A stretch of DNA of 60,072 nucleotides, taken from the NCBI GenBank assembly GCA_902778245.1, contig CACYXH010000004.1, positions 1-60,072 of the forward strand, written 5' to 3'. The position numbers and the translations under genes are program-made. Below the pieces are notes generated by a model, which did not search any database, had not been told where the DNA came from, and worked only from the letters and a program-made list of their open reading frames with translations. Source of the stretch: an uncultured Lachnospiraceae bacterium. GTDB lineage: Bacteria; Bacillota; Clostridia; Lachnospirales; Lachnospiraceae. Shown here piece after piece: positions 6,598-57,030 of the stretch. Each line of letters starts with the position of its first letter. Position 1 is the stretch's first letter.

Positions 6598-6665
6598 AAC
6601 AATAGAAAATTCTGTAAATACCCGGCGATTTGCCGATGGGAATAGAATATATAAAGGAGAAGATT

Positions 6666-9600
6666 ATGGGAAAGAAAATGTTTCGCTTTATCGTAACAGC
6701 CTTGGTATTTTTAATGCTGATCTGCGTTCCGGCAAGTGCGGCAACCTCTTCCGTGACGATCGCAAAAGGGGGAACCAAGCAGTTAAAGGTCAAAGGAACC
6801 TCTATTAAAAAGGCGGTCAGCAGCAAAAAGTCTGTGGCGTCAGTCACAAACAAAGGACTGGTCACGGCAAAGAAAAAGGGCACGGCCGTTATTACTGTAA
6901 CAGGCAAGAATAACAAAAAGTATAAATTTCATGTTACGGTAGAGAAGCCTTCTCTGAACAAAACGTCCTTGACCATCAATCAGGGAAAAACATATGTGTT
7001 AAAGCTGAAAAATAATACGCAAAAGGTGAAATGGTCCAGCAGTAATAAAAAAGTGGCGACTGTTTCATCCAGCGGTGGTGTCACAGCGAAGTCATCCGGA
7101 AAGGCAGTGATCACGGCCAAAGTCCCCAATGGACCATCATACAAATGTAGAGTTACCGTAAAAAAAGTAAAAGCAGCCGATACTTCTTCTGCGCCAGAAG
7201 AGGAGACTGAAAAGCAGACGTTAGTTTCGGCAAACACCATCATTGCCACGAAAAATGAGCTGGATACAATCAACACCACATCCAGCGTGGTTAATCGTGC
7301 GCCTGCAGTCCAAGCCTCCGGGGCGGGGACCGGATACCGCAAGGTGACAATTCAGCCCAGCGGTGATACAGGGGTGCTGAACTACTCCTATAAGGGGAGC
7401 GGGTCTAGCAGCTATACCTATTACCAGAAGGTTTCCTTCGGAACATACAGTGCCAGTCTTGAAGACGGCAGTGATTTTAAGTATAGCGGCTATACATGGG
7501 AGCTTCAGAACAGCAATGCAGTCGATCGCTATATTAAGGTTGCGGACAGCACGATCAAAGTCGCTTTGACTGATTCTATCAGACTTTCCCGTGTTGCAAG
7601 CTATCATGTCTATGTTGTTCATTCTGACGAAAGCAGGGACGAACTAGGGGAAGACGGCAACTCATCATACGGTACGATCACGCTCACAAATCCGACGACT
7701 ACCGCAAATCTTACCATTACCCTTACAAGTGGCGCAATTAGAGACGATGACAGCATTTTAATCGTCGTGGAATATAAGAGAACCTATAAGAATATCCGCA
7801 GCGAGCTGACCTTTTTCAACCAATACGAGTCTCCAGCGTCTATTGCGTTCACGACAACGGAAAAGAAGATCATCAATGGTACCTATAGCGGCGCTGTAAC
7901 GAATGAGATTTCTGTTTCAGAGGCGAATTACGAATCCGCTGTAATTGCGACGACTACAGACTTGAATGAGATCACCCTTGAGTTGCCGTCTCCAATTTAT
8001 ATCGACAAAACAAAAGTTAAGGTCTATCAATGCGACGCTGGCGGGAACAGGACAGAGCTGAATGTCATCGTGGAGGAGCAGCCTCGGGTCACATATCTGG
8101 GCACAGACAGTGACGAGAAAATGCGCCTTAAAATCAGTGGGATCGGCACGTGTACGGACGACATTGTAATTGCGGCAGAGCTCAAACATGCCAAGTCTTA
8201 CATTGGCCTGACTGTGGTTGGAGCGCGCAAGTATGACTCTTATATCAACCCGACGCTGCCGGGGGCGATTTCTGTGGGGGGAAACCGTGGTACGCAAAAG
8301 ATAGGTGCGTCAGGCGATGGTATAACAAATTTCAGCGGCACATATCTTTATTCCGGTGAAACGTATACAATCAGTTACGATGATGCCGTGAACTCCTCAG
8401 AGCTGCTAAGTGCGGTTCTGACCTATAAGGATGCCGATGGAGTGATACAAACGGAGACGTTCCGGCCAAAGCAGGGAGTGAACAACCAGATTGAGTTTAC
8501 CATGCCATTCCTCGCGGATCCCTACGACGCAACGAATAATAAATTAACGCTCAACTATCAATATAACCGCAATTCTGCTGTTGTTACCTTGGACGATGAG
8601 AATAAGGGTGAGGTTCGCATTACTGATACGGAGCAAGGAGCGCAGTCAATTTTTTGGTATAACGGCACTCAGAGTTACTCCGAACAAAGTTTTACCGCAA
8701 CTCGTAATCAAAGCTACCATTTAATCAGTGGTCGTACCTATAAGCTGGAAAGTACATACCAGAATTATGATGGGAATCGACTTATTTGCACCGGCTTTAT
8801 CATCTATCAGCTGAATAGCGATTTGACCAGAAAGACGGATGAAAACGGGGACTATATTACCTATAACGAGATTACCGGCAGCGGAAACGTCTACACCTTT
8901 ACCATGCCGGCTTACCCAGTCGAGATCCATCCCCTGTATGAGGAGCACCTTCATAGTATCAATGTGAAGGTGGACACCGTTGGTGAGATCGTGGGCGGCG
9001 TCACGTTGTCTGGTACAGAAGCGGGCGAAGATGGAACTGGCGGAAACCATTTCTTTGGAGGCACTCCGCTCTATAAAAACGGAAAGAATAATGCGAGCCT
9101 GACGTGGTCGAGCAGCAATTGCTACGCCTCAGATAATCAGACCTATACGCTGACCCCCAATTTTGATCCAAGCGCTTATCGTGTGACTGACGTAAGAGCA
9201 TATTACTTTACGCCTACCACAACCAACTATTCAAATACATATGGATTCTATGGCGCAGCTGCAATCGGTAATCGCAGCCTAGGAACACTGACTCAGTTAA
9301 CAGATGACGAAATTACTATCATAAATAACAATGACACGGATGGGACGTGGACGATCACATTGCCAAACGGCTTCGCCTACAAAAACATTCAGATCGAGAT
9401 CCAAGTGGAAAAAATTCCCGAGTCTTTTGTCAAGTTTACCTATGCGCTGGACGGAACCAGCTCTTCCGGCGGTATGACGCTGAACTCCAAATTTGTCGGT
9501 AAATTTGTCTATACAAAAGCCGGCGATGTCACTTACCCAAGTACAGGTACGCTTACGAATGCCAGCTTTGGAAAGGTAGACCTGTGGAATAAATGGAATA

Positions 9601-12600
9601 ATTCCAAAGAGTTGGAGAATGATGAAGTTCAGAAGAACAGCGTGATAAACGTCACGCTGGGTTATGACGCTGTGCAGTCCGAGACCAACGCATACCGTGG
9701 CAGCCGTCTGGCCTACCGAAACCTGATCATTTCGCTGACGGACGAACAGACCGACGAAGTGTTGTCCACCTTCCGTTATTTCGACGGGGATATCTACGAT
9801 CTTTCGGGAACGAATACCAGCCGGGTCTCCACGCCGGAGACGACCCAGCATTTCAATGAAATGCTTCAATCCATCACCTTTCAGGTCTCGGTAGGGGAGA
9901 ACCCGCTCAAACTGACGATCAAGTATTTTGACAACTATATCCCCGTGACTATCAACCAGATGATCATCGAGGAGGACGGTAATGTTCGTGAGGCAACCGA
10001 GACGGACGGCATCGAAACGACAATCTCAAAGTACGCAAGTGGTTATACGACTGCCCCGGCCTATCAGCAGAAGTTCTTTACCAATGCCTACCGGGCAGGG
10101 GACTATTATCAAGCCTCGGATCTCAGCACAAACTATGTTAGCGAATTTAAGGTCTCTGGCTCAAGAGAGTCCCGAAATATGCTGACGCAGTATCCCAATT
10201 CCGGCCTGCTGGTGACGCCGCCCACATCCGGCTCCTATGTGCTGGCAGGAATCAGCACCAAAACGCTGAACCGAAACGGTGTTGAAGTCGCTACGGAGGA
10301 CACCAATACTACCAAGAAGGGCATTACGCCTGCCATCAGCTATCTGTCAACACAAGCTGCAAACTGGGTTCATTTTAATTCTCGCCTGCCGCTCTCCCAG
10401 CAGCTGGTGGTCAACGTCTACTACACCAAGGCGCTGACAAACCTCACCGTTACTGAGTACGACAACACCAGCACCAGCAAGAATAAGGTCGTGCTGAGCA
10501 ACTACAACACCGAGCGGGACGAGCCGACAATGCCCTATCTGCTCGATCATGTCGATCAGTATGAGACCTATACCATCAATAAGACTGCCAATTCGGCAGG
10601 CGTCTCTACAAACTTTGGCGTCAACCGGGATACCGGCATCCAGTTTGAGATTACCCCGATCAGCACCCGGAATATCTCCGAGGTCAGGGCGTATAAGCTG
10701 CTGGAAAACGATGTGAAGCAAGAGCTGGAAGTGGAGCGTGTCAGCGGCAGCGCATATCCGGGCGAAAAGACGACCTACCGGATCGTCAATTATCTGGCCA
10801 CGCCCGGCGATGATATCCATGTTGAGATCATCTATGACTATATGCAGCGGCTCACCGTCCGTGTGATGATGCTCGACGATGCCAACAAGCTGGTGCCGAA
10901 CCAATCCGATGTGCGGGTCAATGTGACCGGCACAGTCACAGATAGCAGCAACGTATTCTGGCGCGGCGAGAACCAGGTGGTGGACGGGAACACCATCGAG
11001 GTCGGTGCGTATGACGAGACCAACAAGTCCGAGGATTCGGTCTATGTGGCGCCCAACGCCAAAATCGACCTTGAAACAGAGCTCAATGGATCCAATTACA
11101 GGGTTGCAAACGTGGTGGCGTATCAGATAGACAACAATGGAAATACCAAGGGCGACCCCATAGCGCTGACCTATTCCAGAACCAAGAGCGCCGGACAGGA
11201 CGGCGAGGGCGGAGGCATCGACTTTTCCCTCAGTACGCTGCCCTCGATGCCCGTGGGTCAAAACGTGCTGATCACTGTCTATCTGGCAAGGCCGGTGAAT
11301 ATGACAGTCACGATCAAAATGGAGAATGAAAACGGCATAGATGTGGACGGCGCACCTGCTGACTCCTATGTCAATGTGTACGGCAAAAATAGCCAGATCG
11401 GTGCCAACGAGTATACCATTGTCACCGATGAAACTGAGGGCAAATTCAACACAAAGAGCATCACCATCACGGACAATCCCGCCACGCGAACGGTTCAGAT
11501 CTTCCAAGGTTCCACGCTGGAGGCATTTGCCAATGCTTTGTTGGCAGAGGACTGGGTCATTAAAAAGGTGACGGTCACGGACAAGGACGGGAATGAGGTG
11601 GGCAACCTCTACACCGGCGAGAGCTCACAGGTGACGGCGGAGGACACCGGCAATACTTTTCTCCGGGTCAAGTTCGGCACAAGGCAGCAGTTCCTTCCCA
11701 ACAATAACTATACGGTGACGGTCTATCTGGCCAAGGCAAAGAGCGTTATCGTCACCACCTCGATCACCAACAGCACGTTTGCTTCTCCCACGCAGGCGGG
11801 AAGCGTTGAGGTGTACGGCGAAAATGCGGATATTGATACGATCCTCTTTACAAGGATCGATCCCACCGGGACCATATCCGCAAATCACTATGACGCGATC
11901 AATACCAAGCGCAGCGACAGCTACGGCTATCGCTCTGAGACCAAGTGTATCGCCAAAACGGAACTCACGGTGAAGGTGAAACCGAAGAACAGCAATTATA
12001 TTGTCGGCTCCTTTACTGCAAAGCTTGATAATTCCGAAGACTTGGTCTGCACCCCCTCCGAGCCGGACAGCGACGGCGTCATCACCTATACGCTGGCGTA
12101 TGCAAATGGTTCTGCGTTTGAGATGAATAAGCTGCAGGATCTCTACATTGATGTGGAGTTTACCCCTGTAACATCGTCGCATGTGACCATCGACTACTGG
12201 TATACCGACGACTACAAGACGATGAAGCCCGCCCCCGGCAGCGAGGTCACTACCGCCTACATTGAACAGCACTACGGCAGCTCGGTCTATCCCAACGAGC
12301 CAACGGTCTATGATGCGGACAATGGCGTGTGGGTCTCCGGCTTCACGAATATTCCGGCAAACGGAACCTACGACGTGCTGGTCGGCACCAGACTGTATCT
12401 GGGCGTACACCTGATCAACGGGAATATCTACGCTCCCATTGAGAACTGGATCGACCGCACGGATACCGCCACCGGGAAAACAAGCCGCGAGACCTCGTAT
12501 GCGATGCCCACCAATGGCGTGAATCAGGATGTGTCGGTCAAAGCGGGAGAGGATCTGTTCTGCCATATCCTTCTCGCCCCGGTTTCGGTCATCGACTTTA

Positions 12601-15600
12601 CGCAGCGGGACCGCAACGTAGTCGGCGATTCGCCGACAGGCACCGACGCCATTGCCACCACCTGCTACAACAATACCAAATATTGTCCCGAGGCCAAGAT
12701 GGAGCTGGAGCTGGACGCCGACCTCGCCGCTGCCGTTGCATCCGGCAACATCAATAACTCCATTTCCGGCTCCATGTTCCATAAGAATCATTACACCAGC
12801 GAGCTTACGGAGAACACCAGCAATGTGGTCGTTTTCCAGGGCAGCAGCAACCTGACCGTCAGCCTGAATAAAGCAAAGGTTGATCCTGGAGCAGTGGTTT
12901 CGGTCAAGGCATATGATGGTGACACCCTTGTTGCGACGCTGACTGAGACGGAAACAGCGGGCGTCTATACCGCGCCTGATAACTTTGTCATTGAGGCGAA
13001 CAAGCACTACAAGGTGGTCGTCACCATGGACTGCGTGGATACATGGACGAGCTTGAACGGGACGGGAGAGGATGCCGGCGTCTATCTGGTCACGCCCAAG
13101 ACGGCAGATCAGAACGTCAAGACCATCGACATCTACAATTCCGAGACATACGGCATGCTGAAACAGATCAAGTTCGGCACGGGCAGAGAGCAGTACCGGC
13201 TGGACGAGACATGGCGGAATGTGACGGGGCCGGTCTACGTCATTGTTCAGGTGAGCCAGCCCTCGGGCGAGCTCAATCTGGATGTGGCGGAGTGGCGTGA
13301 CTACTATGACGACTATGCCAAGGACGGCAAGTTCGACCAGAAGGGCGGAGTGAACGTCAAAAGCGAGATGCTCGCCAACTACTTTACGGTGCAGGATGGC
13401 AACGGCTTTACTCGGTACTGCTACGCCTTCCAGATCACGCCTGCATATCCGAGTGGGAACACGTTACCGCTGGATAACTCCCAGCACTTCGCGTTTACCT
13501 TCTTCACGCCCAAAACGCCCAGCGTTCACGACACGGAGGACACGCCTTCCACCATCACCCTGTGGCAGAAGAAGAGAACCAGCAATTCCGACTATGTCAT
13601 GACTACCGACGGAACTGCGGTCATGACACTGGCAGACGGTTCCCAGTTTACCTACGAGGGCGAGAGCGTATCCTCGGTTCAGGCGCCGGGACACAACCGT
13701 CAGGAGAGTGTGGTGCTGGCAAATACTGTGGTCGGCAAGTCTATCCGGCTACAGGTGACGCCGCCGGAAAACTGCATCGTCACAAAGGTAGTCGTGACCG
13801 ATGACAACGGCGTCCATGAGTATAAGCCCAACGAGGATAACCTCTATAACATCCAAGTCAGCTTTGCCAAGGAAGAGATCGTTGTCTATTACTCGTGGCC
13901 GCAGATCACCGTCTCTACCAACAACAAGGCCGGAGATGAAAAGGGTACCGTCTGGAAGGACGCGGTAACGCCGGAAAACACAGACAACCTGATCGTGGAC
14001 TCCGGCGTGTACATGGGCAGTACGCTGGTGGAAAAGGGCGTGAACAAGCAGCTCGTTATCGAACCCAAGACCTATGAGACGGAGAACGGCGTGGAGGACT
14101 ATCAGGTCGCCTATGTGCTTGTGGGTCGGGACGGCCGAAACAGTATGCTGCCCATCAGCAGCGATTTAATCGTGCCCGATGCGAACGGACGGATCACGGT
14201 GGAGCTGGGCGAGATCAATACGGACGTGGACGTCCATGTGCAGTTTGCCAAAAAGACTGCGCTAAAGACCATGACGCTTATCGTCTCCCACTTTGTCTGG
14301 GACGGCAGCGACTGGATCCCCTGCAATACCACCTATCACGGCACGGTGACAACGGTCGGTACACTGGAGGGTGTGGATGACCCCATCCTCGATGAGAATG
14401 AGAACCCTGCCAACCCGCTGGTGCTGGAGGAAGACCCCAGCGTCACCGCCACAGTGGTGCAGGGGACGAAACTCGATTTTACTGCAAAGCCGGCGGAGCT
14501 ATTCCTGGTAGATCATGTTGACTACCGGCTCAACAGTGAAAGCACAGTGACTTTATCAGGAACCACGGTGCCTGGTGCGGAGCGGCAATTTGGCTTTACC
14601 GCGGAGAACTACAGCGTCATTTGTGTGGATGTCTACTACAAGGAGCCGGTTTACAAGCTGACCTACCACGGAAATAACAATACAGACGGCAACGCTCCTG
14701 ATCCCGTGGAAAACTGCTTCTACAATGAAGGACTCACGATTGCTGATCAGGGCACACTTGTAAAGGCGAGAAATACATTCCTGGGCTGGAGCAAAAATCC
14801 CGAAGCCACAGAGCCCGAATTCTTGCCAGGCGCAATCTTCCATATTACGGAAAATACGGATCTTTATGCTGTCTGGGAACCTATGACCCGGCATAAACTG
14901 GTTTACAGCTACAAGAACCGATTTGTTAATGATCTGGATGAAGTAGCAAACCGACAGTACATCGTCTTTGTATGGCTTGACAGCGATCAGAAAGTAAAAG
15001 TGCAAAATACAGATGGAACGTATGCAGAGCAGCCAACGAAACAGATTCTGAAAGAGAATGCGCCGTACATTGACGATCTGTACAAAGATTGCAAATGGGA
15101 TTTTGACAATGCGAAGACCGTGGACAATGTAACTACGATACCAGCCATTCAGACCCTGAAAAAGTATAAGATCTACTGGGAAATTGCAGAAGAAAAGACG
15201 GGGGAAAGCAGCAGCGGAACCATCGACGTAAGCGAACTGAAAGAAACGAATACAGCGGAAATCGTTAAGAATGGAAGAAAGATAACATGCCATTACGTTG
15301 ACCACCCCTACAACGTACTGTGTCCTCTGAGAGCAGTGAAGAGGAATGGTGTAACGGACTTCCTGTATTGGCAGGCAACGGATGTGGATGCCAACGGAAA
15401 CCTGATTGAAGGAACCACCAAGCCTGTGTGCTACACAGAGTACTACAGCTACCGTATCACCAAGGATATCTATGTAGAGCCTGTTTATTATGGAGATGGG
15501 ACGAAGGGCTGGGATCTTACTCTGGGCGAGACGATCTATTCCCGGGAACAGTATACAGGTGAGCTAGAGGAAGAGACGGAAGAAGGGGGAAATTCGACAA

Positions 15601-16445
15601 CAGGGATCGAAAAGACGACTGTATACGATTACGTCTATACCGATTATCTGATTTCCATCCTGTCACCGTATCAGGAACTGGTGGATGATATCAATAAAGC
15701 TGTTCAAAATGAGAACGATGAGAGTACCCAGGGCGAAATAACGAATATCCAGTTCGGCCTTGTGCTGGAGCGGGATACAAGCTATGAATACGACCATGAC
15801 CAAAACGAGAATGTTGTTTATCCGGAAAAGGCACAGGAAGATATTTGCAGTCTGCTGGATGGGAAAAAGGCTGAAATTGGCAGTGGTACAAGCAAGAAAG
15901 TTTCGGCAGAAGAAAAAAAACGTGAATACTTCATCTTCGACAGAACGGACTCGGCAACGCTGCTGACCAATAAGAACCGCATTGATGTGTACATCAGATT
16001 TGCGAATAACGAATTGAATCCGAAGTATGCCTACAACGTGTACGCATATATGATCATCACGAGGGATGATGCGCAGACAGTCATTGTCAGCAAGGATGTT
16101 TCCAGACTGAATATCTATGACTACGGTCACAGGATCTATTCTGCTTTTGAGGTATTGCCGGAGCCGGAGGATCCGGATTCAACTGAACCGGAAACGCTGC
16201 CTAGCAGTGCGGCAGCGCCTGCCGCATTGTACTCTGATGTGGACTATGCCGATGACGGTCTGATCGAGGACGCGGAGGATATGAGCGAAGACGCCACGGA
16301 CAACTGGTCTGACGAGAGAGAACCTGATGTGCAGGAAGAGACGGATACAGATGGTTACCCGACGGATGACGCGGAAAATGAGGACGCGCCTGAAGTGCTT
16401 GACGATACCGTTTTAGAGAATGACACGGAAGAGATTTTAGAATAG
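6666..16445 (+). CDS. Giant secreted repeat protein (BIG2 + InlB-like repeats), about 3260 aa
   Basis: Signal peptide at residues 1-26 (MGKKMFRF, hydrophobic core, PASAA). Two bacterial Ig-like (BIG2) domains follow (about 27-170; SVASVTNKGLVTAKKKGTA, VATVSSSGGVTAKSSG). Next comes roughly 2500 residues of degenerate beta-rich repeats of about 120-180 aa. These carry the theme L-x-V-x-P...Y-x-V-x-x-V-x-A-Y...F-x-M-P...V-x-V-x-Y...V-T-V, close to divergent InlB B-repeats. One clear InlB/Listeria-Bacteroides repeat (TFLGWSKNP, NTDLYAVWEP) lies near 2650-2735. The last 120 residues are D/E-rich. I see no LPXTG, C-terminal TM, SLH or choline-binding repeats. The start was chosen for AAGGAGA six bases upstream; the ATG at 6630 lacks a site and spoils the signal peptide. 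Probably an adhesin or matrix protein; substrate unknown. Confidence 0.88.
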   Translation: MGKKMFRFIVTALVFLMLICVPASAATSSVTIAKGGTKQLKVKGTSIKKAVSSKKSVASVTNKGLVTAKKKGTAVITVTGKNNKKYKFHVTVEKPSLNKTSLTINQGKTYVLKLKNNTQKVKWSSSNKKVATVSSSGGVTAKSSGKAVITAKVPNGPSYKCRVTVKKVKAADTSSAPEEETEKQTLVSANTIIATKNELDTINTTSSVVNRAPAVQASGAGTGYRKVTIQPSGDTGVLNYSYKGSGSSSYTYYQKVSFGTYSASLEDGSDFKYSGYTWELQNSNAVDRYIKVADSTIKVALTDSIRLSRVASYHVYVVHSDESRDELGEDGNSSYGTITLTNPTTTANLTITLTSGAIRDDDSILIVVEYKRTYKNIRSELTFFNQYESPASIAFTTTEKKIINGTYSGAVTNEISVSEANYESAVIATTTDLNEITLELPSPIYIDKTKVKVYQCDAGGNRTELNVIVEEQPRVTYLGTDSDEKMRLKISGIGTCTDDIVIAAELKHAKSYIGLTVVGARKYDSYINPTLPGAISVGGNRGTQKIGASGDGITNFSGTYLYSGETYTISYDDAVNSSELLSAVLTYKDADGVIQTETFRPKQGVNNQIEFTMPFLADPYDATNNKLTLNYQYNRNSAVVTLDDENKGEVRITDTEQGAQSIFWYNGTQSYSEQSFTATRNQSYHLISGRTYKLESTYQNYDGNRLICTGFIIYQLNSDLTRKTDENGDYITYNEITGSGNVYTFTMPAYPVEIHPLYEEHLHSINVKVDTVGEIVGGVTLSGTEAGEDGTGGNHFFGGTPLYKNGKNNASLTWSSSNCYASDNQTYTLTPNFDPSAYRVTDVRAYYFTPTTTNYSNTYGFYGAAAIGNRSLGTLTQLTDDEITIINNNDTDGTWTITLPNGFAYKNIQIEIQVEKIPESFVKFTYALDGTSSSGGMTLNSKFVGKFVYTKAGDVTYPSTGTLTNASFGKVDLWNKWNNSKELENDEVQKNSVINVTLGYDAVQSETNAYRGSRLAYRNLIISLTDEQTDEVLSTFRYFDGDIYDLSGTNTSRVSTPETTQHFNEMLQSITFQVSVGENPLKLTIKYFDNYIPVTINQMIIEEDGNVREATETDGIETTISKYASGYTTAPAYQQKFFTNAYRAGDYYQASDLSTNYVSEFKVSGSRESRNMLTQYPNSGLLVTPPTSGSYVLAGISTKTLNRNGVEVATEDTNTTKKGITPAISYLSTQAANWVHFNSRLPLSQQLVVNVYYTKALTNLTVTEYDNTSTSKNKVVLSNYNTERDEPTMPYLLDHVDQYETYTINKTANSAGVSTNFGVNRDTGIQFEITPISTRNISEVRAYKLLENDVKQELEVERVSGSAYPGEKTTYRIVNYLATPGDDIHVEIIYDYMQRLTVRVMMLDDANKLVPNQSDVRVNVTGTVTDSSNVFWRGENQVVDGNTIEVGAYDETNKSEDSVYVAPNAKIDLETELNGSNYRVANVVAYQIDNNGNTKGDPIALTYSRTKSAGQDGEGGGIDFSLSTLPSMPVGQNVLITVYLARPVNMTVTIKMENENGIDVDGAPADSYVNVYGKNSQIGANEYTIVTDETEGKFNTKSITITDNPATRTVQIFQGSTLEAFANALLAEDWVIKKVTVTDKDGNEVGNLYTGESSQVTAEDTGNTFLRVKFGTRQQFLPNNNYTVTVYLAKAKSVIVTTSITNSTFASPTQAGSVEVYGENADIDTILFTRIDPTGTISANHYDAINTKRSDSYGYRSETKCIAKTELTVKVKPKNSNYIVGSFTAKLDNSEDLVCTPSEPDSDGVITYTLAYANGSAFEMNKLQDLYIDVEFTPVTSSHVTIDYWYTDDYKTMKPAPGSEVTTAYIEQHYGSSVYPNEPTVYDADNGVWVSGFTNIPANGTYDVLVGTRLYLGVHLINGNIYAPIENWIDRTDTATGKTSRETSYAMPTNGVNQDVSVKAGEDLFCHILLAPVSVIDFTQRDRNVVGDSPTGTDAIATTCYNNTKYCPEAKMELELDADLAAAVASGNINNSISGSMFHKNHYTSELTENTSNVVVFQGSSNLTVSLNKAKVDPGAVVSVKAYDGDTLVATLTETETAGVYTAPDNFVIEANKHYKVVVTMDCVDTWTSLNGTGEDAGVYLVTPKTADQNVKTIDIYNSETYGMLKQIKFGTGREQYRLDETWRNVTGPVYVIVQVSQPSGELNLDVAEWRDYYDDYAKDGKFDQKGGVNVKSEMLANYFTVQDGNGFTRYCYAFQITPAYPSGNTLPLDNSQHFAFTFFTPKTPSVHDTEDTPSTITLWQKKRTSNSDYVMTTDGTAVMTLADGSQFTYEGESVSSVQAPGHNRQESVVLANTVVGKSIRLQVTPPENCIVTKVVVTDDNGVHEYKPNEDNLYNIQVSFAKEEIVVYYSWPQITVSTNNKAGDEKGTVWKDAVTPENTDNLIVDSGVYMGSTLVEKGVNKQLVIEPKTYETENGVEDYQVAYVLVGRDGRNSMLPISSDLIVPDANGRITVELGEINTDVDVHVQFAKKTALKTMTLIVSHFVWDGSDWIPCNTTYHGTVTTVGTLEGVDDPILDENENPANPLVLEEDPSVTATVVQGTKLDFTAKPAELFLVDHVDYRLNSESTVTLSGTTVPGAERQFGFTAENYSVICVDVYYKEPVYKLTYHGNNNTDGNAPDPVENCFYNEGLTIADQGTLVKARNTFLGWSKNPEATEPEFLPGAIFHITENTDLYAVWEPMTRHKLVYSYKNRFVNDLDEVANRQYIVFVWLDSDQKVKVQNTDGTYAEQPTKQILKENAPYIDDLYKDCKWDFDNAKTVDNVTTIPAIQTLKKYKIYWEIAEEKTGESSSGTIDVSELKETNTAEIVKNGRKITCHYVDHPYNVLCPLRAVKRNGVTDFLYWQATDVDANGNLIEGTTKPVCYTEYYSYRITKDIYVEPVYYGDGTKGWDLTLGETIYSREQYTGELEEETEEGGNSTTGIEKTTVYDYVYTDYLISILSPYQELVDDINKAVQNENDESTQGEITNIQFGLVLERDTSYEYDHDQNENVVYPEKAQEDICSLLDGKKAEIGSGTSKKVSAEEKKREYFIFDRTDSATLLTNKNRIDVYIRFANNELNPKYAYNVYAYMIITRDDAQTVIVSKDVSRLNIYDYGHRIYSAFEVLPEPEDPDSTEPETLPSSAAAPAALYSDVDYADDGLIEDAEDMSEDATDNWSDEREPDVQEETDTDGYPTDDAENEDAPEVLDDTVLENDTEEILE

Positions 16446-16460
16446 GAACCAAACACACAA

Positions 16461-16630
16461 GGGGCTGTTGTAAAATACTGGTAAGGGGTTCCGCGTATCC
16501 ATATGTACGCATCTCCGAGACACTGTAAGAGATAGGACGGACTTTAGTCCGTCATAGACATACAGTGTCGGAAGGAGCAAGCGAACATAGGATATCGGAA
16601 ATCCATTAGCCAGTATTTTGCAACAGCCCC
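16461..16630. repeat. 170-bp imperfect palindrome (MITE-like or bidirectional terminator)
   Basis: The outer arms at 16461-16484 and 16607-16630 pair almost perfectly (GGGGCTGTTG-T/C-AAAATACTGG). Pairing continues inward: 16488-16506 with 16586-16604, then GACACTGTA at 16519-16527 with TACAGTGTC at 16561-16569. The centre holds GGACGGACT-TTAGTCCGTC. Nearly the whole element folds into one long nested hairpin between two convergent genes. No coding sequence and no obvious target-site duplication were seen. Confidence 0.75.
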
Positions 16631-16638
16631 CATTATGG

Positions 16639-17079
16639 TTAATTATGTTTTTTGACAGTCAGTTTTTGAAGGAGAATTTCACAGGTTCTGTATCCATACC
16701 GCAGTATTCGCCGGGTGGGAAAGGAGAGACACCAGAAGTGTACATAGAACTTATACCATATATTATCACAGGAACAGGATTTTCCGTTTCGCGTAAATTC
16801 GATCATAACGGCAAGTACCTGATCTCTCCGGATGCGTTCCATGCTAAATTCATTATCGCCGCACATGTTTAACGTGTCGCCATCAATTTTCAGGATACGA
16901 TGAAGAACAAATTGACCATTGTCCCGCTGAAAAAGCACGGTATCGTATTTCTTCAGAGGCTCCCGCTTTTCCAGGTAGACCACATCCCGACGATCATGGA
17001 GCAGCGGATACATGCTGCAGCCGTGAACAGCTGCGGCATAGCAGCCAAGCAGGTCGATGGTCTCACCGGGATTATTCAT
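16639..17079 (-). CDS. S26/S24-like signal peptidase of the RiPP-like operon
   Basis: A 146-aa peptidase-like protein. The Ser box GCSMYP puts the nucleophile at Ser22. VLHRIL gives His60 where bacterial type I signal peptidases have Lys, as in the archaeal/ER (SipW-like) type. GDNEFS at 74-79 matches the terminal GDN box. It lacks the usual N-terminal membrane anchor; the only hydrophobic stretch is near residues 107-120. It is the last gene of the minus-strand operon and overlaps the PqqD-like gene by eight bases. Inference: it cleaves the leader of the modified peptide or a partner protein. A role as a general secretion signal peptidase is less likely. Confidence 0.75.
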   Translation of the reverse strand: MNNPGETIDLLGCYAAAVHGCSMYPLLHDRRDVVYLEKREPLKKYDTVLFQRDNGQFVLHRILKIDGDTLNMCGDNEFSMERIRRDQVLAVMIEFTRNGKSCSCDNIWYKFYVHFWCLSFPTRRILRYGYRTCEILLQKLTVKKHN

Positions 17080-17338
17080 CGATCAGCCCTGCACTTCGGG
17101 TTTTTTCCAGAAACTCATCCAGATCGCGTATAGCAGTCTCCCTGTCCACCTCATAATTCTCCAGCATCTGTTCAATTACAAAATCGTATGACACATCCTC
17201 CTGCATGAGATCCCAGACAAAGGCTCCGGTTTCATTTAGGGTGATCAGAACATTAAACTCATCCGCGGCATTTCCTACAGCTACCGAAAGGTATTTGTCG
17301 GCAAATTTTCTCAGGATAAATCCATCTTTGATTTTCAT
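17072..17338 (-). CDS. PqqD-like peptide recognition protein
   Basis: An 88-aa protein with the PqqD winged-helix pattern: an N-terminal strand pair (FADKYLSVAVG), then LNETGAFVWDLMQ and a C-terminal helix ending LDEFLEKTRSAGLI. PqqD-family proteins are RiPP recognition elements that hold the precursor's leader for the modifying enzymes. AAGGAG lies upstream of its ATG. It starts four bases after the kinase gene ends and overlaps the peptidase gene, so these genes are translationally coupled. Its place beside a radical SAM enzyme supports the RiPP reading. Confidence 0.85.
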   Translation of the reverse strand: MKIKDGFILRKFADKYLSVAVGNAADEFNVLITLNETGAFVWDLMQEDVSYDFVIEQMLENYEVDRETAIRDLDEFLEKTRSAGLIDE

Positions 17339-17342
17339 ATAT

Positions 17343-18044
17343 TCAGTCTCCTTTTATCTGTTGAAATGCTGTGTAAGCAGCATCGTCGCTCTGGTTGCAT
17401 GCCAAGTGGAACATTCTGGCGGTTGAGGTAATCACATCCAACAGATCCAATACTTTCATTCGGCCCGCTAAGTCGTGGGGGAGGGGAGTTGCGCTTATTA
17501 GCCGGGGAAGGACGTCCGTTGAAGAAATTTGCCTGCAATGGTTTTCGGCTCCCCTTGTCAGCCAGAAGATCCCTCCCAACTCCGCGCTGGTGTTGGAACC
17601 GTAATTCTCCTTTCCGCGCCAGGGAGTTCCATACACGATTACCTTTCCGTCTCTAATGCGCAGGATGGGCTTATCCCCATTAATAATCGATACTCGATCG
17701 CCAAAACATTTTTTCCAAATCCGGATATGTGTCGTTTTCCCGGTGCCGGAAGGGGCAGTAAAAAGGTATGCCCTGTTGTTATAGCAGACGGCGGCGCTGT
17801 GGAGCAAAAGTCCGTCATAATGATACAGTAGTTCCTGGCTGATCTTCCGAAGATGCGCCGAAGATTCGCAGATTTCATCAGAAAAGCCGGAGCGTTCCTT
17901 TTCGCAGACAATATCCTTCCCGGTAACAATTATTTCAAAATCGTACAGTTTGTCTTCCGTTCGATAGTCCTGCAGCACCCTCCGGGCATAAACGCTCTGT
18001 GGGGTAATTTTCATATTGAGATCTGCTATGCGGTATATAGCCAT
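17343..18044 (-). CDS. HprK-like serine kinase (PqqD-associated)
   Basis: A 233-aa protein with a P-loop APSGTGKTT at residues 97-105, preceded by LLLHSAAV as in HPr kinase C-terminal domains. VSIINGDKP follows at about 118-126, then YGTPWRGKENYG. It lacks the N-terminal domain of true HPr kinase/phosphorylase, so a role in carbon-catabolite signalling is unlikely. Homologues of this type sit in RiPP clusters; in paeninodin-type lasso-peptide clusters such a kinase phosphorylates the precursor's C-terminal Ser. Here it lies between the radical SAM gene (12-base gap) and PqqD. Inference: it phosphorylates the peptide or is a regulatory ATPase. Confidence 0.82.
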   Translation of the reverse strand: MAIYRIADLNMKITPQSVYARRVLQDYRTEDKLYDFEIIVTGKDIVCEKERSGFSDEICESSAHLRKISQELLYHYDGLLLHSAAVCYNNRAYLFTAPSGTGKTTHIRIWKKCFGDRVSIINGDKPILRIRDGKVIVYGTPWRGKENYGSNTSAELGGIFWLTRGAENHCRQISSTDVLPRLISATPLPHDLAGRMKVLDLLDVITSTARMFHLACNQSDDAAYTAFQQIKGD

Positions 18045-18056
18045 AAATTCTCCTTC

Positions 18057-19385
18057 TCAGGAAAGTTCCCGATGCAGCGATCTGAGTAAGGCATGTTCTT
18101 GTAATTCTTTGCAGCTGCTTCTGGTTATCGGACAAAGTGAAAAAGTAGTGCAATTGGGAAGAAATGCGCAGCCGCTGCATTTTTTTGGTACGGGCGGGTA
18201 TGAGGAGTATTGTTTCAAAATATTATTTTCAGAGATCCCATTGGTAATCGTTCCAATCGCTGTGCCCGGCAAACAATGCTCACAGGTATAAAGGAGTCCG
18301 TCGGGGGCGATCACAATATTATTATGAGGATTTTGCGCCATGCAGTATTGAAGCGCCAACTGATGAAGATTGCTGCCGCTCTTTTCTGAAAATCCATAGG
18401 CTGCCAGTTTATCGTTCATCCCAAAACAGCTTTCCCAAACCGAAAAGCTATTCTCTTTAGCCTGAACCTCATATAGAGGTGTGAAATAGGCTGATAAATT
18501 TGTCTTATCGGGGAACCGGCAGTTTAGATCCTCTATCAGCCGATGGCAGCTATTTAAGTTGCGGCTGTCAACATTGCAGCGCAAACGAACCTTGATGCCA
18601 TGGCGAAGAAGTATGCCGATATGATCCATTACTACACGGTAAGGGGAATTCTTTGCGGTATGGTATTGCTTCCGGTGGTTATACTCTGTCTCGTCTCCAT
18701 CTAAAGAAATCTGGATCAATTCCAAATTCCAGATGCCTGCCATATTATCTGCGATTTCATCCGTGATCAGACTGCCATTGGAAACCATGGTGGAATAGAA
18801 GTCAACGGATTGCTGCCTAAGACGCCGGCATATCGTGTCGATGGCTTTACTGCAGATCAGCGGTTCGCCTCCAAACCAGTGCAGGTGAATTTTCCCATCG
18901 TATCTGGAGGATAAAATGTAGGAAGTTACTTGTTCTATCATCTCCGGCGTCATCGTGACAGGTTTCTTATGGGCCTCAAAACAATAAAAACATCTGGCAT
19001 TGCAGGCAGTCGTGGGCAGGATCGTGAATCTGGTAAATCCTTTTTTTTGTTTCCTGTGTTTCAGGGAACGGGCAATTTCAGTCAAGTTTTCATATAATAA
19101 ATCTTCATCCTCGTGTTCCTGTACCAGAAAATAGTCTTTTGCCAGCTGCCCAAGGGAAGCGTTATTATCCATATCCAGAGTGGTATATAAATTGCGCGTG
19201 TTTATTGCGTTATCTGAAGCTTCCAATAAATAGCACTGCTTTGTTAGCGTATTGTAGATATAGTTTGCGTTTCCTTTTTGAAAATGATAAGCATATACAG
19301 ACCATTTATATTGCCTGGCGGGAGGGAGCTTTTGCTCTGATAGGACAATCCTGATCAGTGGGTCCATCTTCATTACTTCGATCAT
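18057..19385 (-). CDS. Radical SAM/SPASM peptide maturase
   Basis: The radical SAM cluster motif CNARCFYC (Cys128, Cys132, Cys135, CX3CX2C) opens the TIM-barrel. HWFGGEPLI and ISLDGD match the family's SAM-binding strands. The C-terminal SPASM region has C-EHC followed by CSGC...NC...C, for auxiliary Fe-S clusters. The first 110 residues (YNTLTKQCYLLE...) resemble the N-terminal leader-binding domain of SPASM maturases. These enzymes install thioether or C-C crosslinks in peptides. The start is uncertain: ATGs at 19397 and 19433 are in frame. I chose 19385 because AAAGGA lies about eleven bases before it. Chemistry cannot be deduced from sequence. Confidence 0.87.
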   Translation of the reverse strand: MIEVMKMDPLIRIVLSEQKLPPARQYKWSVYAYHFQKGNANYIYNTLTKQCYLLEASDNAINTRNLYTTLDMDNNASLGQLAKDYFLVQEHEDEDLLYENLTEIARSLKHRKQKKGFTRFTILPTTACNARCFYCFEAHKKPVTMTPEMIEQVTSYILSSRYDGKIHLHWFGGEPLICSKAIDTICRRLRQQSVDFYSTMVSNGSLITDEIADNMAGIWNLELIQISLDGDETEYNHRKQYHTAKNSPYRVVMDHIGILLRHGIKVRLRCNVDSRNLNSCHRLIEDLNCRFPDKTNLSAYFTPLYEVQAKENSFSVWESCFGMNDKLAAYGFSEKSGSNLHQLALQYCMAQNPHNNIVIAPDGLLYTCEHCLPGTAIGTITNGISENNILKQYSSYPPVPKKCSGCAFLPNCTTFSLCPITRSSCKELQEHALLRSLHRELS

Positions 19386-19445
19386 TGTAAAAGACATCCT
19401 TTCTTCAAGGCACTGCAGGATCGGCTTTAACATGTCGGAGATGTT

Positions 19446-19488
19446 AAAAATTGCTCATCCCTGCAGCAAAAGCTAAAAGGATGAGCAA
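19446..19488 (-). terminator. Attenuator between precursor peptide and radical SAM genes
   Basis: On the minus strand TTGCTCATCC (19479-19488) pairs with its complement at 19451-19460 across an 18-base loop and is followed by TTTTTAA. It lies 15 bases after the peptide's stop. Partial termination here would give more peptide than enzyme transcript, the usual arrangement in peptide-maturation operons. Confidence 0.75.
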
Positions 19489-19502
19489 AGCGTTTTGTCT
19501 TC

Positions 19503-19652
19503 CTAACAGTTACTCATGGTACCAAAGTCTATGCCAACTTCTGATATTGGAGATTCTGTTATTCGTTCTTCCTGGTCGCGTGACCCGGTCACAATATCAT
19601 CGTTTGAGATTTCGACAAATTCAATTTCCGGTTTTTGGTACAACTTCTTCAT
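19503..19652 (-). CDS. Putative 49-aa RiPP precursor peptide
   Basis: Begins MKKLYQKPEIEF and has the leader-like pattern KPEIEFVEISNDDIVTGS. The remaining 25 residues are rich in Glu, Ser, Thr, Ile and Asp and end in MSNC with a single, terminal Cys. The ATG at 19652 follows GGAGAGG by about nine bases; an earlier in-frame ATG at 19691 has no site and overlaps the leader mRNA. It has a near-consensus promoter and is followed by an attenuator and the maturation genes. Position, size and leader style support precursor status. With only one Cys, multiple thioether bridges are impossible, so the modification must be a single crosslink, phosphorylation or another type. Confidence 0.72.
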   Translation of the reverse strand: MKKLYQKPEIEFVEISNDDIVTGSRDQEERITESPISEVGIDFGTMSNC

Positions 19653-19730
19653 GTTTGCAGCGCCTCTCCATTGTATGTGTTCAGGAAACACAGTATTATC
19701 AACATTTTAAAATCGCAACTAATCACTCTC

Positions 19731-19759
19731 ATTCTACTTCAAAGGGACCGCATTGTCAA
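19731..19759 (-). promoter_or_regulatory. Promoter of the RiPP-like operon
   Basis: On the minus strand a perfect TTGACA (19754-19759) is followed by 17 bases and TAGAAT (19731-19736), a near-consensus sigma-A promoter. It is about 80 bases upstream of the peptide start and back to back with the plus-strand promoter at 19791. Confidence 0.75.
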
Positions 19760-19861: not shown

Positions 19862-20086
19862 ATGAGGAAATTCTTTGCGGGTATCGCTGCAATGATAGTG
19901 ATGTTATACTCTTTGAACATGTCCGCTCTTGCGGTGGGCAGTCCCGGGGGGACGCCGACAACGGAAACTACCGTAGAAAAGTCTCCGAAGACTGGAGACC
20001 AGACTCTTTTGTATGTGGAACTGGCAGGCGCCGCGCTTGCAGTAACTGCGGTTGTTGCCAAAAAACGTTCCGCACGGGAAGCATAA
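19862..20086 (+). CDS. Miniature sortase substrate (74 aa)
   Basis: An N-terminal signal peptide (MRKFFAGIAA, hydrophobic, ending SALAVG) leaves a mature part of only about fifteen Thr/Glu/Pro-rich residues. Then comes SPKTGD, a sortase-type motif, a hydrophobic segment (about 49-65) and a positive tail KKRSAREA. This is the full wall-anchoring signal with almost no cargo. The ATG follows GGGAGGGA. The longer in-frame ORF from 19451 has no start site and would hide the signal peptide. It lies directly upstream of a sortase B gene, its likely processing enzyme. It may be a carrier stub, pilus-like tip, or sortase regulator. Confidence 0.75.
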   Translation: MRKFFAGIAAMIVMLYSLNMSALAVGSPGGTPTTETTVEKSPKTGDQTLLYVELAGAALAVTAVVAKKRSAREA

Positions 20087-20192: not shown

Positions 20193-21062
20193 ATGAGGAA
20201 AAGGCAAAAACAAAAGTTCTGGAGGGTGGTTTTCTGGATCGCGCTGCTGGGTTTTTTGAGCTGTGCCTGCTATGTGGGCTGGTATTACTGGAGCAGATAT
20301 CAGACAGAGCGGGAATATGAAGAATTGCGCTGGGAGATAGCCCGGCAGACTGAGACGGAGGAAGAGACGGGTCATGCCCCCACGCTGGAGGAGATTGAAG
20401 GCGCGGAGTTTACCGGTATTATTGATGCTCCTGCTCCGGCCATACCGGATGGTGTTCTGACAGACGCCTCGGAAAATCCCGTGAATTTCACATTGCTTTC
20501 GCAGATAAATCCCGAATTGTACGCATGGATAAGAATACCGAATACAAACATTGATTATCCGGTAGCTCAGCATAAGGGGGAGGATCAGACCTTTTACCTG
20601 CACCATGATATGTACGGGACTCCCCAGTTCGCGGGCTGCATCTATTCAGAAAGTGCCAACAGTACCGATTTCAAAGATCCGGTAACCGTTCTGTATGGAC
20701 ATAATATGAAAAACGGATCTATGTTTCAGAATCTGTTTCAATATAAAGACGAGTCGTTTTTTTTGGATAATCGTTATGTCTATATCTATACACCGGGAAT
20801 GGTCAGGGTCTACGAGATTTATTCCGCTTACCCATATGATGACAGAAATATTATGAAGTCGTTCGATTTCGCAGAACAGGAAGAATTGAAAAAATATATT
20901 GAGGAGAGTCAGCATCCCCGTTCCATGGAGGCTATGATGAGGGAGGGAGCAGAGGTGACGCAGGAGAGTAAAATACTCACTTTAAGCACCTGTATTGCCG
21001 GACAGACAGATGCGCGTTTTCTTGTCCAGGCAGTGCTGATATATGAAGAGAATGGGAAATAA
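20193..21062 (+). CDS. Class B sortase
   Basis: Membrane transpeptidase that cuts sorting signals and links the protein to peptidoglycan. It has an N-terminal membrane anchor (about 10-33) and a Glu-rich linker. The catalytic core has His170 in VLYGHNM, Cys267 in TLSTC and Arg275. The class B signature helix region DRNIMKSFDF...YIEESQHP is present. The 289-aa length fits. It follows its probable 74-aa substrate and overlaps the LCP gene by 20 bases, so the two are co-translated. The PKTG-type motif of the neighbour is more typical of class A/C/D sortases, so the pairing is inferred from position. Confidence 0.9.
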   Translation: MRKRQKQKFWRVVFWIALLGFLSCACYVGWYYWSRYQTEREYEELRWEIARQTETEEETGHAPTLEEIEGAEFTGIIDAPAPAIPDGVLTDASENPVNFTLLSQINPELYAWIRIPNTNIDYPVAQHKGEDQTFYLHHDMYGTPQFAGCIYSESANSTDFKDPVTVLYGHNMKNGSMFQNLFQYKDESFFLDNRYVYIYTPGMVRVYEIYSAYPYDDRNIMKSFDFAEQEELKKYIEESQHPRSMEAMMREGAEVTQESKILTLSTCIAGQTDARFLVQAVLIYEENGK

Positions 21063-52312: not shown

Positions 52313-52840
52313 ATGAACCTATACGCATGGCCCCTCGGCCGAGTAACAGCGACCATTCTGCTCCTGGTGACAGTCTGGACCTGCATCACTTGCACCACGG
52401 TCCGAAACCCAAAGCATCAAGACCTCTGGCGCTGGGCAAACCGATTGTTATTGCTGCTTTCCATATCTGCTATATTATATATAACAGTATGGGGCAGAAC
52501 CCCATCAGCGGTACAGCCGCCCATTATGCACCCGCTGCATTCCTTCGCCGCAGCAAAGGGGCAGCCGGAACTCTACCGGGAAATGCTAATGAATCTTTTC
52601 CTCTTCGTCCCTCTGGGTTTATCCATGCCGGTGGCAATGTCGGAAAAAATAAGGTATAAATCTGGTCTGACGATACTCACGGCGCTTGCATTATCCTGTG
52701 TTGTCGAGTATACTCAATACCGCTTCGGACTCGGCCTGGCGGAGACCGATGATGTCATTATGAACACACTGGGAGCGGCAATCGGCAGCAGCGCCCAAGT
52801 AATCAGCCGAATCGCAACAGGGAGGAGAGCGCGGACATGA
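52313..52840 (+). CDS. VanZ-like membrane protein
   Basis: 175 aa with four predicted membrane segments. The VanZ pattern is REMLMNLFLFVPLGL, then SCVVEYTQYRFGLGLAETDDVIMNTLGAAIG, with the conserved E-x-x-Q and DD-x-x-x-N-x-x-G. VanZ-family proteins occur in glycopeptide-resistance and polysaccharide loci; their role is not firmly known. It overlaps the nucleotidyltransferase gene by four bases. The N-terminus overlaps rearranged DNA, so the native start might differ. Confidence 0.82.
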   Translation: MNLYAWPLGRVTATILLLVTVWTCITCTTVRNPKHQDLWRWANRLLLLLSISAILYITVWGRTPSAVQPPIMHPLHSFAAAKGQPELYREMLMNLFLFVPLGLSMPVAMSEKIRYKSGLTILTALALSCVVEYTQYRFGLGLAETDDVIMNTLGAAIGSSAQVISRIATGRRART

Positions 52841-54057
52841 AAAAATTGTCAGAGGAGCAGGAGATGGTTATTGCAATATTGTCCGCTCAGCTTTTCCATG
52901 CACAGGTAAAGATCACGAAAGAAATTGATTGGCAATCCGTTTGTGATGAAGCAATACAGCAGGCTGTTTTTCCTTTTGTGGCTTTAACCGCCGCACCATA
53001 CCTGTCGTCTAAAAAGCAATCAGTGGCGAAAAAAATTTTTATGTCTGCTATTGCGCGAAACATGCAGATTGACTATGAACACGCACAGCTGAATGAGCTG
53101 CTGACAGCAAATGATATTCCTTACGTCATTCTAAAGGGGGCGGCATCTGGGTTTTATTACCCTGAACCGATATTACGAATGATGGGAGATGTGGATTTTC
53201 TGATCCGTGAATCAGATTTTCAGCGGGCGGGGGCATTGCTGGAAACTGCCGGGTTCCGATCGGAGAAGGACTCAGGAGGAATACATGTAGGTTATCACCG
53301 GACAGGCTCTGTATGGGAAATGCATAGGATGGCCAACGGAGTTCCTGCGGGCATTGCCGGTAAACGGACAAAGGAGTATCTGTCAGATATTATAGATACT
53401 GCTGTCACGGTAAAATCTTCTAAAGGCAGTTACCGTATACCTGACCGTTTTCATCACGGCTTAGTACTTCTGCTGCACACCGTATCCCACATGACCTCTT
53501 CCGGCATTGGCCTGCGCCATCTGTGCGATTGGGCTGTTTTTGCGGCAAGCATGTCCGATCGTGAATTTTGTGATGTCTTTGAGCAGCCATTGAAGGAGAT
53601 CGGTATGTGGCGATTTGCACAGCTGCTGACACTTTGCGCTGTTCACTACCTGGGCTGTCCAGCTAAAACCTGGGCAGGAGAGGCGGATGAAGAACTTCTG
53701 ACTGCTATGATCTGCGACATTTTAAACAGCGGTAATTTCGGACAGAAAGACGCAGACCGCTATCGCCAAATTAAGTACATTGCTAATCGGGGGGAGAATA
53801 CCGTAGATGAAAAAGGTCCCATCCGGCAAGTGATCCATACAATGAACCGAAAAGTGAAAGCAGAGTGCAGTTTTGTTGCCAGACATCCTGTTTTACTTCC
53901 GGCAGGCTGGATTTTTGTTGGTGGAACATATCTGAGATTGGTATTTTTGGGAAAAAGACAACTGGACTCTGGAAAGACGATTGAGGCTGCAAAAGAACGA
54001 AAGGCTATCTATCAGGAATTTCATCTGTTTGAAACGGGAGGTGAAACATTTGTTTGA
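52837..54057 (+). CDS. PF14907-type uncharacterised nucleotidyltransferase
   Basis: 406 aa. YVILKGAASGFYYPEPILRMMGDVDFLI carries the G-x-D-x-D-like metal site of the nucleotidyltransferase fold. HVGYHRTGSVWEMHR and the helical LLLHTVSHMTSSGIGLRHLCDWAVF follow. Family members sit in polysaccharide and in RiPP clusters, the latter often beside HprK-like kinases. The last residues (GGETFV) come from a 25-bp duplication; without it the gene would end GGETL with a TGA overlapping the next ATG. Confidence 0.85.
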   Translation: MKKLSEEQEMVIAILSAQLFHAQVKITKEIDWQSVCDEAIQQAVFPFVALTAAPYLSSKKQSVAKKIFMSAIARNMQIDYEHAQLNELLTANDIPYVILKGAASGFYYPEPILRMMGDVDFLIRESDFQRAGALLETAGFRSEKDSGGIHVGYHRTGSVWEMHRMANGVPAGIAGKRTKEYLSDIIDTAVTVKSSKGSYRIPDRFHHGLVLLLHTVSHMTSSGIGLRHLCDWAVFAASMSDREFCDVFEQPLKEIGMWRFAQLLTLCAVHYLGCPAKTWAGEADEELLTAMICDILNSGNFGQKDADRYRQIKYIANRGENTVDEKGPIRQVIHTMNRKVKAECSFVARHPVLLPAGWIFVGGTYLRLVFLGKRQLDSGKTIEAAKERKAIYQEFHLFETGGETFV

Positions 54058-56831: not shown

Positions 56832-57030
56832 TTTATAGTTGCAAGACTGACAGTGACTAGTCATCCGGCTAGATCGAGTCGATTTCGAAAGAGATAAGTT
56901 ACGGGCTACGGTATGCGCCATTCGTTGATGCCTTACGGATGACCGACAACATATAAACATGCGGGGGTGGCCGCTATACCGCCCCGCCACTCACCTCTAC
57001 GTGTTCTGTAGTGTGTCAGTCTTACAAAAT
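55547..57030 (-). mobile_element. IS110-family insertion sequence remnant
   Basis: The broken transposase plus about 200 bases of structured non-coding DNA upstream of it. IS110-group elements carry a bridge RNA in this position, so 56832-57030 is where one would lie. The ends are not definable by eye because these elements lack clear terminal repeats. The coordinates are therefore approximate. Confidence 0.5.

Follow-up and report, generated by a model that had tools for sequence, protein, structure and literature searches.

An operon from an uncultured Lachnospiraceae bacterium that may join a radical SAM enzyme to an LPP-type peptide pathway

Introduction

Which product could be expected from an operon in which a 49-residue peptide with one cysteine is followed by a radical S-adenosylmethionine (SAM) enzyme, a kinase, a PqqD-like protein and a peptidase? 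The question is raised by a minus-strand gene set at positions 16639–19759 of contig CACYXH010000004.1 from an uncultured Lachnospiraceae bacterium (GCA_902778245.1). The window referred to below is this entire contig, 60,072 nucleotides of a 2.96-Mb assembly. An earlier note, made from the sequence alone, had described the set as a compact operon resembling those for ribosomally synthesized and post-translationally modified peptides (RiPPs). Open reading frames (ORFs) and family matches confirm this composition, and the operon is very probably a RiPP cluster. With moderate confidence we propose that it is a radical-SAM-augmented operon of the type that makes Linear Polyphosphorylated Peptides (LPP), with a thioether formed at Cys49, a phosphorylated Ser24 and a leader removed by an S26-type peptidase.

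The LPP system was reported in 2026 by Popov et al. from Paenibacillus alginolyticus, with the genes LppA-K-B-S-D-N (PMC13381572). According to its main text, the RiPP recognition element (RRE) LppB recognizes leaders with YxxP, LppK phosphorylates Ser3 of the core, next to the cleavage site, several times, and the SipW-like peptidase LppS removes the leader with the help of LppB; precursor without phosphate is cut poorly. These steps were demonstrated in vitro and in B. subtilis with genes from P. alginolyticus. The native peptide was not detected, and final structure and role of these linear phosphopeptides are described as unsettled. An MsbA-like exporter and an NTP transferase also belong to the LPP core, and it was in capsule loci that such clusters were first noticed (PMC13381572). 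Neither radical SAM nor SPASM is mentioned in the main text of that paper, supplements not included. In the open literature (subscription papers, preprints and supplements not covered) we found no description of a radical SAM enzyme combined with LPP-type genes, and nothing pertinent on TIGR04463, FlmE, OhkG or SynChlorMet.

Results and discussion

Organization of the operon

All five ORFs lie on the minus strand inside 16639–19652. In the direction of transcription a promoter-like site is followed by the precursor ORF, an attenuator-like hairpin and four enzyme genes, which overlap one another or are at most 13 bases apart. The precursor peptide (19503–19652, 49 residues, ending in MSNC) was assigned as an ORF, by a leader profile (about 40 bits, the peptide itself being a seed) and by alignment with relatives. 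The longest ORF of the predicted radical SAM/SPASM peptide maturase spans 18057–19433 (458 residues), with a likely start near 19385; it carries a CxxxCxxC motif and SPASM-type cysteines. Next come the genes of the HprK-like putative peptide kinase (17343–18044), the discrete PqqD/LppB-like RRE (17072–17338) and the putative S26/SipW-type leader peptidase (16639–17079).

The predicted sigma-70-type promoter of the precursor (19731–19759, minus strand; TTGACA-17-TAGAAT) agrees with the consensus in 11 of 12 positions and was called near-consensus in the earlier note. By itself the site is weak evidence, because the scan returned 13 promoter-like sites compared with 7.1 in shuffled sequences. 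Between precursor and radical SAM gene (19451–19488, minus strand) folding yields a hairpin of -24.7 kcal/mol (z -5.45, equalled by 0 of 200 shuffles) with a T run behind it. Its strength and the T run make the proposed label of an attenuator reasonable, though a simple terminator scan did not list this hairpin. Hairpins of -8 kcal/mol or lower with a T-rich tail were found in 20 of 57 related gaps, a count that has no shuffled control.

Kinase, RRE and peptidase

The kinase itself has no significant match in Pfam. In a PDB search with a profile of the kinase, HPr kinases ranked after ABC transporters, with E values from 0.26 upwards. Among its homologues from other genomes (whose loci carry L-numbers), L210 matches Hpr_kinase_C at E 0.002, below the cut-off, L214 matches PEPCK_ATP at 8e-4 and L176 matches nothing. 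When the kinase profile was compared by hhalign with that of the genome's own HprK, a probability of 87 and an E value of 4e-6 were obtained. The relationship to HprK is hence established by homologues and profile comparison, not by a direct Pfam match. The Walker A motif SGTGKTTH and the motifs N-x-DKP and YGTPW-x-GK are intact. A role as housekeeping HprK, the catabolite regulator, was considered and rejected; the genome encodes a separate genuine HprK (E 1e-71). A weak resemblance to the SynChlorMet (Scm) system is seen for the kinase (ScmC, E 0.0078) and the radical SAM enzyme (ScmE, E 1e-10), but both scores stay far below the cut-offs (15.6 against 125 bits and 40.9 against 400 bits, respectively).

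The RRE is recognized by Pfam PqqD (5e-16). In the PDB its matches are TbiB1 (E 3e-4), LppB (9x8z, E 0.006) and PbaB1 from a lasso cluster (9x90, E 0.013). Asn35 and Asp72 occupy the places of Asn33 and Asp70 of LppB with the same spacing of 37. According to the main text of PMC13381572, Asn33 of LppB holds the Pro kink and Asp70 the Tyr of the leader, and PbaB1 has Gly and Gln there. Across 91 free-standing RRE homologues, these two columns contain Asn in 87 and Asp in 71.

The peptidase matches Pfam Peptidase_S24 at 5e-5, just over the cut-off. Ser22 and His60 are invariant in all nine homologues, which agrees with expectation from Ser29 and His68 of LppS; Asp75 and Glu81 are both invariant, so that two candidates exist for the counterpart of the LppS acid Asp93. 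A dedicated peptidase that cuts the peptide had been predicted before, and this fits LppS.

The window shares with LPP an HprK-like kinase, a discrete RRE, a signal peptidase I (SpI)/S26-type peptidase, a YxxP leader, a Ser near the leader/core junction, and a capsule-locus setting; it also holds an NTP transferase gene, 33 kb from the operon. It differs by the added radical SAM/SPASM enzyme and the core cysteine. We favour an LPP-type operon because kinase, RRE and peptidase make up the published LPP core and because the RRE matches LppB with the equivalent Asn and Asp; the earlier note had not recognized this family.

Kinase, RRE and NTP transferase are also found with phosphorylated lasso peptides of the paeninodin type (PMC7533575, PMC13381572), and the overall match of the RRE to PbaB1 is nearly as good as that to LppB. 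A lasso or paeninodin-like peptide with its cyclase gene elsewhere is nevertheless very improbable: the leader has Tyr instead of Trp, the Asn and Asp of the RRE stand in place of the Gly and Gln of PbaB1, and an S26 peptidase replaces B2. Moreover, no macrolactam cyclase was found nearby. We took the Asn-synthetase motif SGGxDS as the mark of a lasso cyclase, and no ORF of more than 300 residues contains it in 80 kinase loci of other genomes (L066–L145, the best 77 matches of a search in the family and three of a search in the genus) or at 11–27 kb of the window.

Leader family, radical SAM enzyme and core cysteine

The window precursor has a YxxP leader (YQKPEI), Ser24 at the predicted leader/core junction and Cys49 as its only cysteine at the C-terminus, which excludes a multi-bridge product for this peptide, as had been concluded before. 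A leader profile of 26 columns was built from 21 seeds, including the window precursor. At a cut-off of 8 bits it matched 112 of 52,575 ORFs (about 21 of them the seeds), and a reversed control gave 0. Judged by this profile, the window precursor is more than a chance ORF. After removal of an enzyme-length ORF (L021) and two duplicates (L212 and L096), 109 precursors remained for counting. In 57 cases a leader-type precursor lies 20–320 bases ahead of the radical SAM gene; conservation of the small ORF beside homologous enzymes, the lack of which the earlier note had named as a refutation, supports the view of a RiPP-like operon. In its own genome, the operon's precursor is the sole one of the leader type.

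The radical SAM enzyme matches Pfam Radical_SAM at 2e-14. Cys128, Cys132 and Cys135, together with seven further cysteines from Cys348 to Cys425 of the SPASM/auxiliary-cluster type, are invariant in all four radical SAM sequences compared. A four-sequence profile of the enzyme matches PDB entry 5wgg (E 1e-18), named 'Radical SAM domain protein', which we take to be the thioether-forming CteB. The best NCBIfam match is the radical SAM RiPP maturase TIGR04463 (residues 54–431), with 148 bits compared with a curated cut-off of 525.

Presence of a cysteine in the core follows the radical SAM gene. A core cysteine was found beside the window's radical SAM family in 65 of 68 loci, beside another, PqqE-like radical SAM type in 6 of 6, and in 1 of 13 loci where neither type was found (Fisher p 8e-11 for the first against the last). 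With similar cores collapsed, the numbers are 71 of 78 peptides for the family and 1 of 17 where neither type was found; restriction to kinase-bearing loci gives 40 of 43 against the same 1 of 17. Leader cysteines, taken as a control, are rare in both groups (7/78 and 1/17). The peptides found in three radical SAM loci (L020, L164 and L213) lack a core cysteine; L164 additionally has a cysteine-bearing precursor that the leader profile missed. In L220, three precursors stand beside one radical SAM gene, two of them without a core cysteine.

The spacing Cys-x-x-Asp/Glu, a feature of this family that the earlier note did not contain, occurs 71 times in the family cores compared with 30.2 expected (sd 4.6; at most 50 in 1000 shuffles). 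Within the kinase-bearing loci it occurs 27 times compared with 14.5 expected (shuffle maximum 25). Counted per locus, it is enriched in the other set (25/36, expected 15.0) and not clearly so in the kinase-bearing one (14/32, expected 11.9).

These features recall ranthipeptides (freyrasin PapA/PapB; CteA/CteB) by the radical SAM/SPASM enzyme with its profile match to 5wgg and by cores of the window's relatives that resemble the CX3D motif of PapA (PMC9413430). The relatives differ by their CX2D/E spacing, which the window precursor does not have, and the window differs by a single C-terminal cysteine and by a separate RRE, a kinase and an S26 peptidase. PapB is described as linking Cys to Asp or Glu and as accepting CX0D to CX6D, both extremes incompletely (PMC9413430). 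Since the core cysteine tracks the radical SAM gene, Cys-x-x-Asp/Glu is enriched and PapB provides a precedent, a thioether is the likeliest chemistry of the family, and its enzymes probably form cysteine thioethers. Together with L194 and L203, whose cores likewise have one cysteine in terminal position, the same observations speak for a thioether in the window. A core of LP-x-HG type, its cysteine at or near the end, is common to L194, L203, L185 and L204.

Distribution and history of the pairing

In 397 genomes of the same family, the window's own included, the kinase has a match in 89 (E 1e-8) and the radical SAM enzyme in 14 (E 1e-20). Analysed with our own profiles, 42 of the 80 kinase loci contain kinase, RRE and S26 peptidase. 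In 22 of the 80 there is a radical SAM enzyme of another kind (PqqE-like in the cases scanned), and in one, L105, from the same genus as the window, there is the window's type.

From these family and genus searches the quartet of radical SAM enzyme, kinase, RRE and S26 peptidase seemed to be limited to the window and its congener L105. This was overturned by a scan of named genomes with four radical SAM sequences, which returned at least 519 relatives, the best 80 of which, corresponding to 79 loci, were used. Within 6 kb of the radical SAM gene the kinase is found in 34, the RRE in 51, the S26 peptidase in 29 and all three in 23 loci; ABC and NTP genes are also present in 9 of these 23. Many of the 79 loci are truncated by the end of a contig: flanks of 4 kb on either side are available in 47, 13 of which have the quartet. 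The order radical SAM-kinase-RRE-S26-ABC-NTP is complete in L210 (Ruminococcus flavefaciens YL228) and L220. Pfam supports the assignments in L210, with sub-threshold scores for Hpr_kinase_C and S24. The quartet also occurs in records labelled Prevotella or Xylanibacter, Planctomycetales and Anaerolineaceae, the latter two being metagenome bins that are possibly mislabelled. Rumen or other gut samples are named in many record titles. A search for the whole gene set with an alignment of the adjacent small peptides had been suggested in the earlier note; the recurrence of the quartet and the YxxP leader kept beside its enzymes further argue for an LPP-type operon with a radical SAM enzyme.

Among the matches listed, the nearest radical SAM relatives are those of L164 and L165 (43–45% identity; tree support 100). 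By contrast, the six kinases with which the window kinase clusters come from loci in which neither radical SAM type was found (support 98/81). Because the two enzymes have different closest relatives, the window's pair was probably assembled separately from most others. In a radical SAM tree of 94 rows made by a quick method, the kinase label requires 21 changes, at least 16 by supported branches, a count that contig ends inflate; in a kinase tree of 100 rows, the radical SAM label requires 8 changes, at least 6 by supported branches. By both trees, the pairing of kinase and radical SAM enzyme has been made more than once.

Kinase loci with a PqqE-like enzyme represent a second, larger kinase-radical SAM group in the window's bacterial family. 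In L094 (5711–7576) and L096 (695–2560) a single fusion protein of 621 residues combines an HprK-like kinase with a PqqE-like radical SAM enzyme, and the fusion gene is followed by a YxxP precursor, also ending in SNC, and a PqqD gene. In 15 of the 80 kinase loci an ORF of about 360–460 residues matches both the kinase and the PqqD profile. An S26 peptidase is fused to the N-terminus of an ABC exporter in L084 (3906–6191) and L088 (7293–9407).

Proposed pathway and alternatives

We propose the following pathway for the window. The attenuator would limit readthrough into the enzyme genes and thus provide an excess of precursor. The free-standing RRE would bind the YQKPEI leader and present the peptide to the radical SAM/SPASM enzyme, which would join Cys49 by a thioether to an upstream residue and so close one ring. 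A first guess at the acceptor would be Asp42, or else a different acidic residue of the core. The HprK-like kinase would add one or more phosphates to Ser24, and cleavage by the S26-type peptidase near DDIV/TGS would free a core of about 28 residues. Genes elsewhere would take care of export and further decoration; a candidate is the NTP transferase beyond the capsule cluster. Steps are given here in a presumed order. Phosphorylation near the C-terminus, as earlier envisaged, found no support. A likelier candidate site is Ser24, at the leader/core junction, because the LPP relative is phosphorylated on core Ser3 by the cleavage site and Ser24 is the matching residue.

Several observations weigh against this pathway. 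As to the thioether, the window core after Ser24 has its one cysteine as the very last residue and no Cys-x-x-Asp/Glu, and terminal cysteines are not enriched in the family (5 of 84 cores compared with 9.1 expected from composition; 3 of 27 single-Cys cores compared with 1.8). For these two reasons the acceptor for Cys49 is a guess. A C-terminal cysteine as conserved hallmark of the family was rejected as a rule, 5 of 84 cores having it where composition predicts nine. In addition, the loci lacking radical SAM genes all belong to a single bacterial family, and most of those with such a gene were taken from a different collection; since the two sets differ in origin, phylogeny is a confounder of the association between cysteine and radical SAM gene. 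The closest relatives of the enzyme also differ from the window: the precursors of L164 and L165 are GTG-started and end in CWVCYM and CYVCYM, with cysteines close to the C-terminus, and no kinase gene was found on 12,505 bases (the whole L164 contig) or on 11,992 of 17,438 bases (L165).

If the operon were a plain LPP operon, its radical SAM enzyme would perform another reaction, such as a carbon-carbon crosslink or an epimerisation, or act on another peptide. In favour of this are the window core with its single terminal cysteine outside the family spacing, the three of 68 radical SAM loci without core cysteine and the two such precursors of L220. Against it, the core cysteine tracks the radical SAM gene, L164 does have a cysteine-bearing precursor, the own genome shows a single leader-type precursor, and the nearest radical SAM relatives have cysteines near the C-terminus. 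On balance we consider this alternative unlikely, while it is the most serious one.

A C-terminal cysteine would also suit a scaffold peptide that carries its terminal residue during modification and then sets it free as a small molecule, the pattern of 3-thiaglutamate; PMC9016710 describes a scaffold peptide whose terminal Cys is modified. This is highly improbable here: relatives carry cysteines anywhere in the core without enrichment at the end, and none of the four operon enzymes resembles one that adds or cuts a C-terminal residue.

The proposed phosphorylation of Ser24 meets its own objections. Ser at the predicted phosphosite is present in 39 of 40 peptides from loci where no kinase gene was found and in 34 of 44 with a kinase gene, and the leader profile that selected the peptides itself favours Ser in this column. 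Conservation of Ser24 can hence not be credited to the kinase, as it is equally kept where no kinase gene was found, and was rejected as proof of a phosphosite. The conserved Ser24 may serve cleavage. From the published LPP motif YxxPxVLxHQxIxFETxxS, the window precursor retains YxxP, a hydrophobic residue and the Ser, and lacks HQ and FET. An MsbA-like exporter was not found in the 60-kb window, where the sole ABC ATPase-domain protein has 432 residues and is encoded inside the capsule cluster, and the NTP transferase gene is 33 kb away from the operon. Six capsule markers of the window gave any match in 12 of 80 kinase loci and 4 of 80 radical SAM loci; the capsule linkage is not general.

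Alternatively, the operon could be of radical SAM ranthipeptide type with an HprK-like protein that is inactive or has another role and is not a peptide kinase. This would account for the 45 of 79 radical SAM loci in which no kinase gene was found within 6 kb and for the Ser24 kept there too. We regard it as improbable: the catalytic motifs are intact, the protein falls among kinases from loci of LPP type, the pairing of a kinase with a radical SAM gene happened more than once, and LppK is described as phosphorylating a peptide with a similar leader (PMC13381572).

A wider, tentative reading, to which we give somewhat less than even chances, would be a widespread, hitherto undescribed RiPP family of rumen and gut bacteria. 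In these bacteria one free-standing RRE would hand the precursor to two modifiers of unrelated chemistry, a thioether-forming radical SAM enzyme and an HprK-like kinase that (poly)phosphorylates Ser, followed by the S26 peptidase; the pairing would have arisen several times independently, and the window member would form a single ring from its C-terminal Cys. The LPP-like branch described here, present in many rumen and gut records and in Bacteroidota, shares the same kind of leader, RRE and peptidase with a radical SAM enzyme that goes together with core cysteine, and joins two peptide families otherwise known separately, an LPP-type chassis and a ranthipeptide-like radical SAM enzyme. This suggests that the set of leader, RRE and peptidase is a chassis that takes on different modifiers. 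It offers substrates for the question of whether two modifications on one RRE-bound peptide are ordered or compete, and gene sets for expression are supplied, e.g. that of Ruminococcus flavefaciens YL228 (L210).

Genomic surroundings

A capsule cluster extends from 23.4 to about 52 kb of the window, with CpsB/CapC, Wzz, a sugar transferase, glycosyltransferases and a pyruvyl transferase among 20 proteins scanned. The operon lies on one side of it. On the other, at its far end, is the gene of an NTP_transf_5 nucleotidyltransferase (52837–54057, plus strand; Pfam PF14907, 3e-36), the better of two matches in the own genome; as a candidate LppN it may belong to the pathway.

Just downstream of the S26 gene an element resembling a miniature inverted-repeat transposable element (MITE) is located at 16461–16630, with inverted-repeat arms of 50 nucleotides that are 70% complementary. 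Its own genome gives 24 BLAST matches to it, a figure that includes the element and counts one copy on both strands. Apart from the element, the best matches are a 172-base copy at 92% and two copies of roughly 138 bases at 96%. A 3271-residue ORF with an N-terminal signal-like stretch (6630–16445) ends just before this element and the operon. On the other flank, a 74-residue mini-protein with a sortase-type SPKTGD tail (19862–20086; LPXTG_anchor at the cut-off) is encoded directly upstream of a sortase gene (20193–21062). Two adjacent minus-strand ORFs at 55547–56990 look like the halves of a broken transposase, presumably of the IS110 type.

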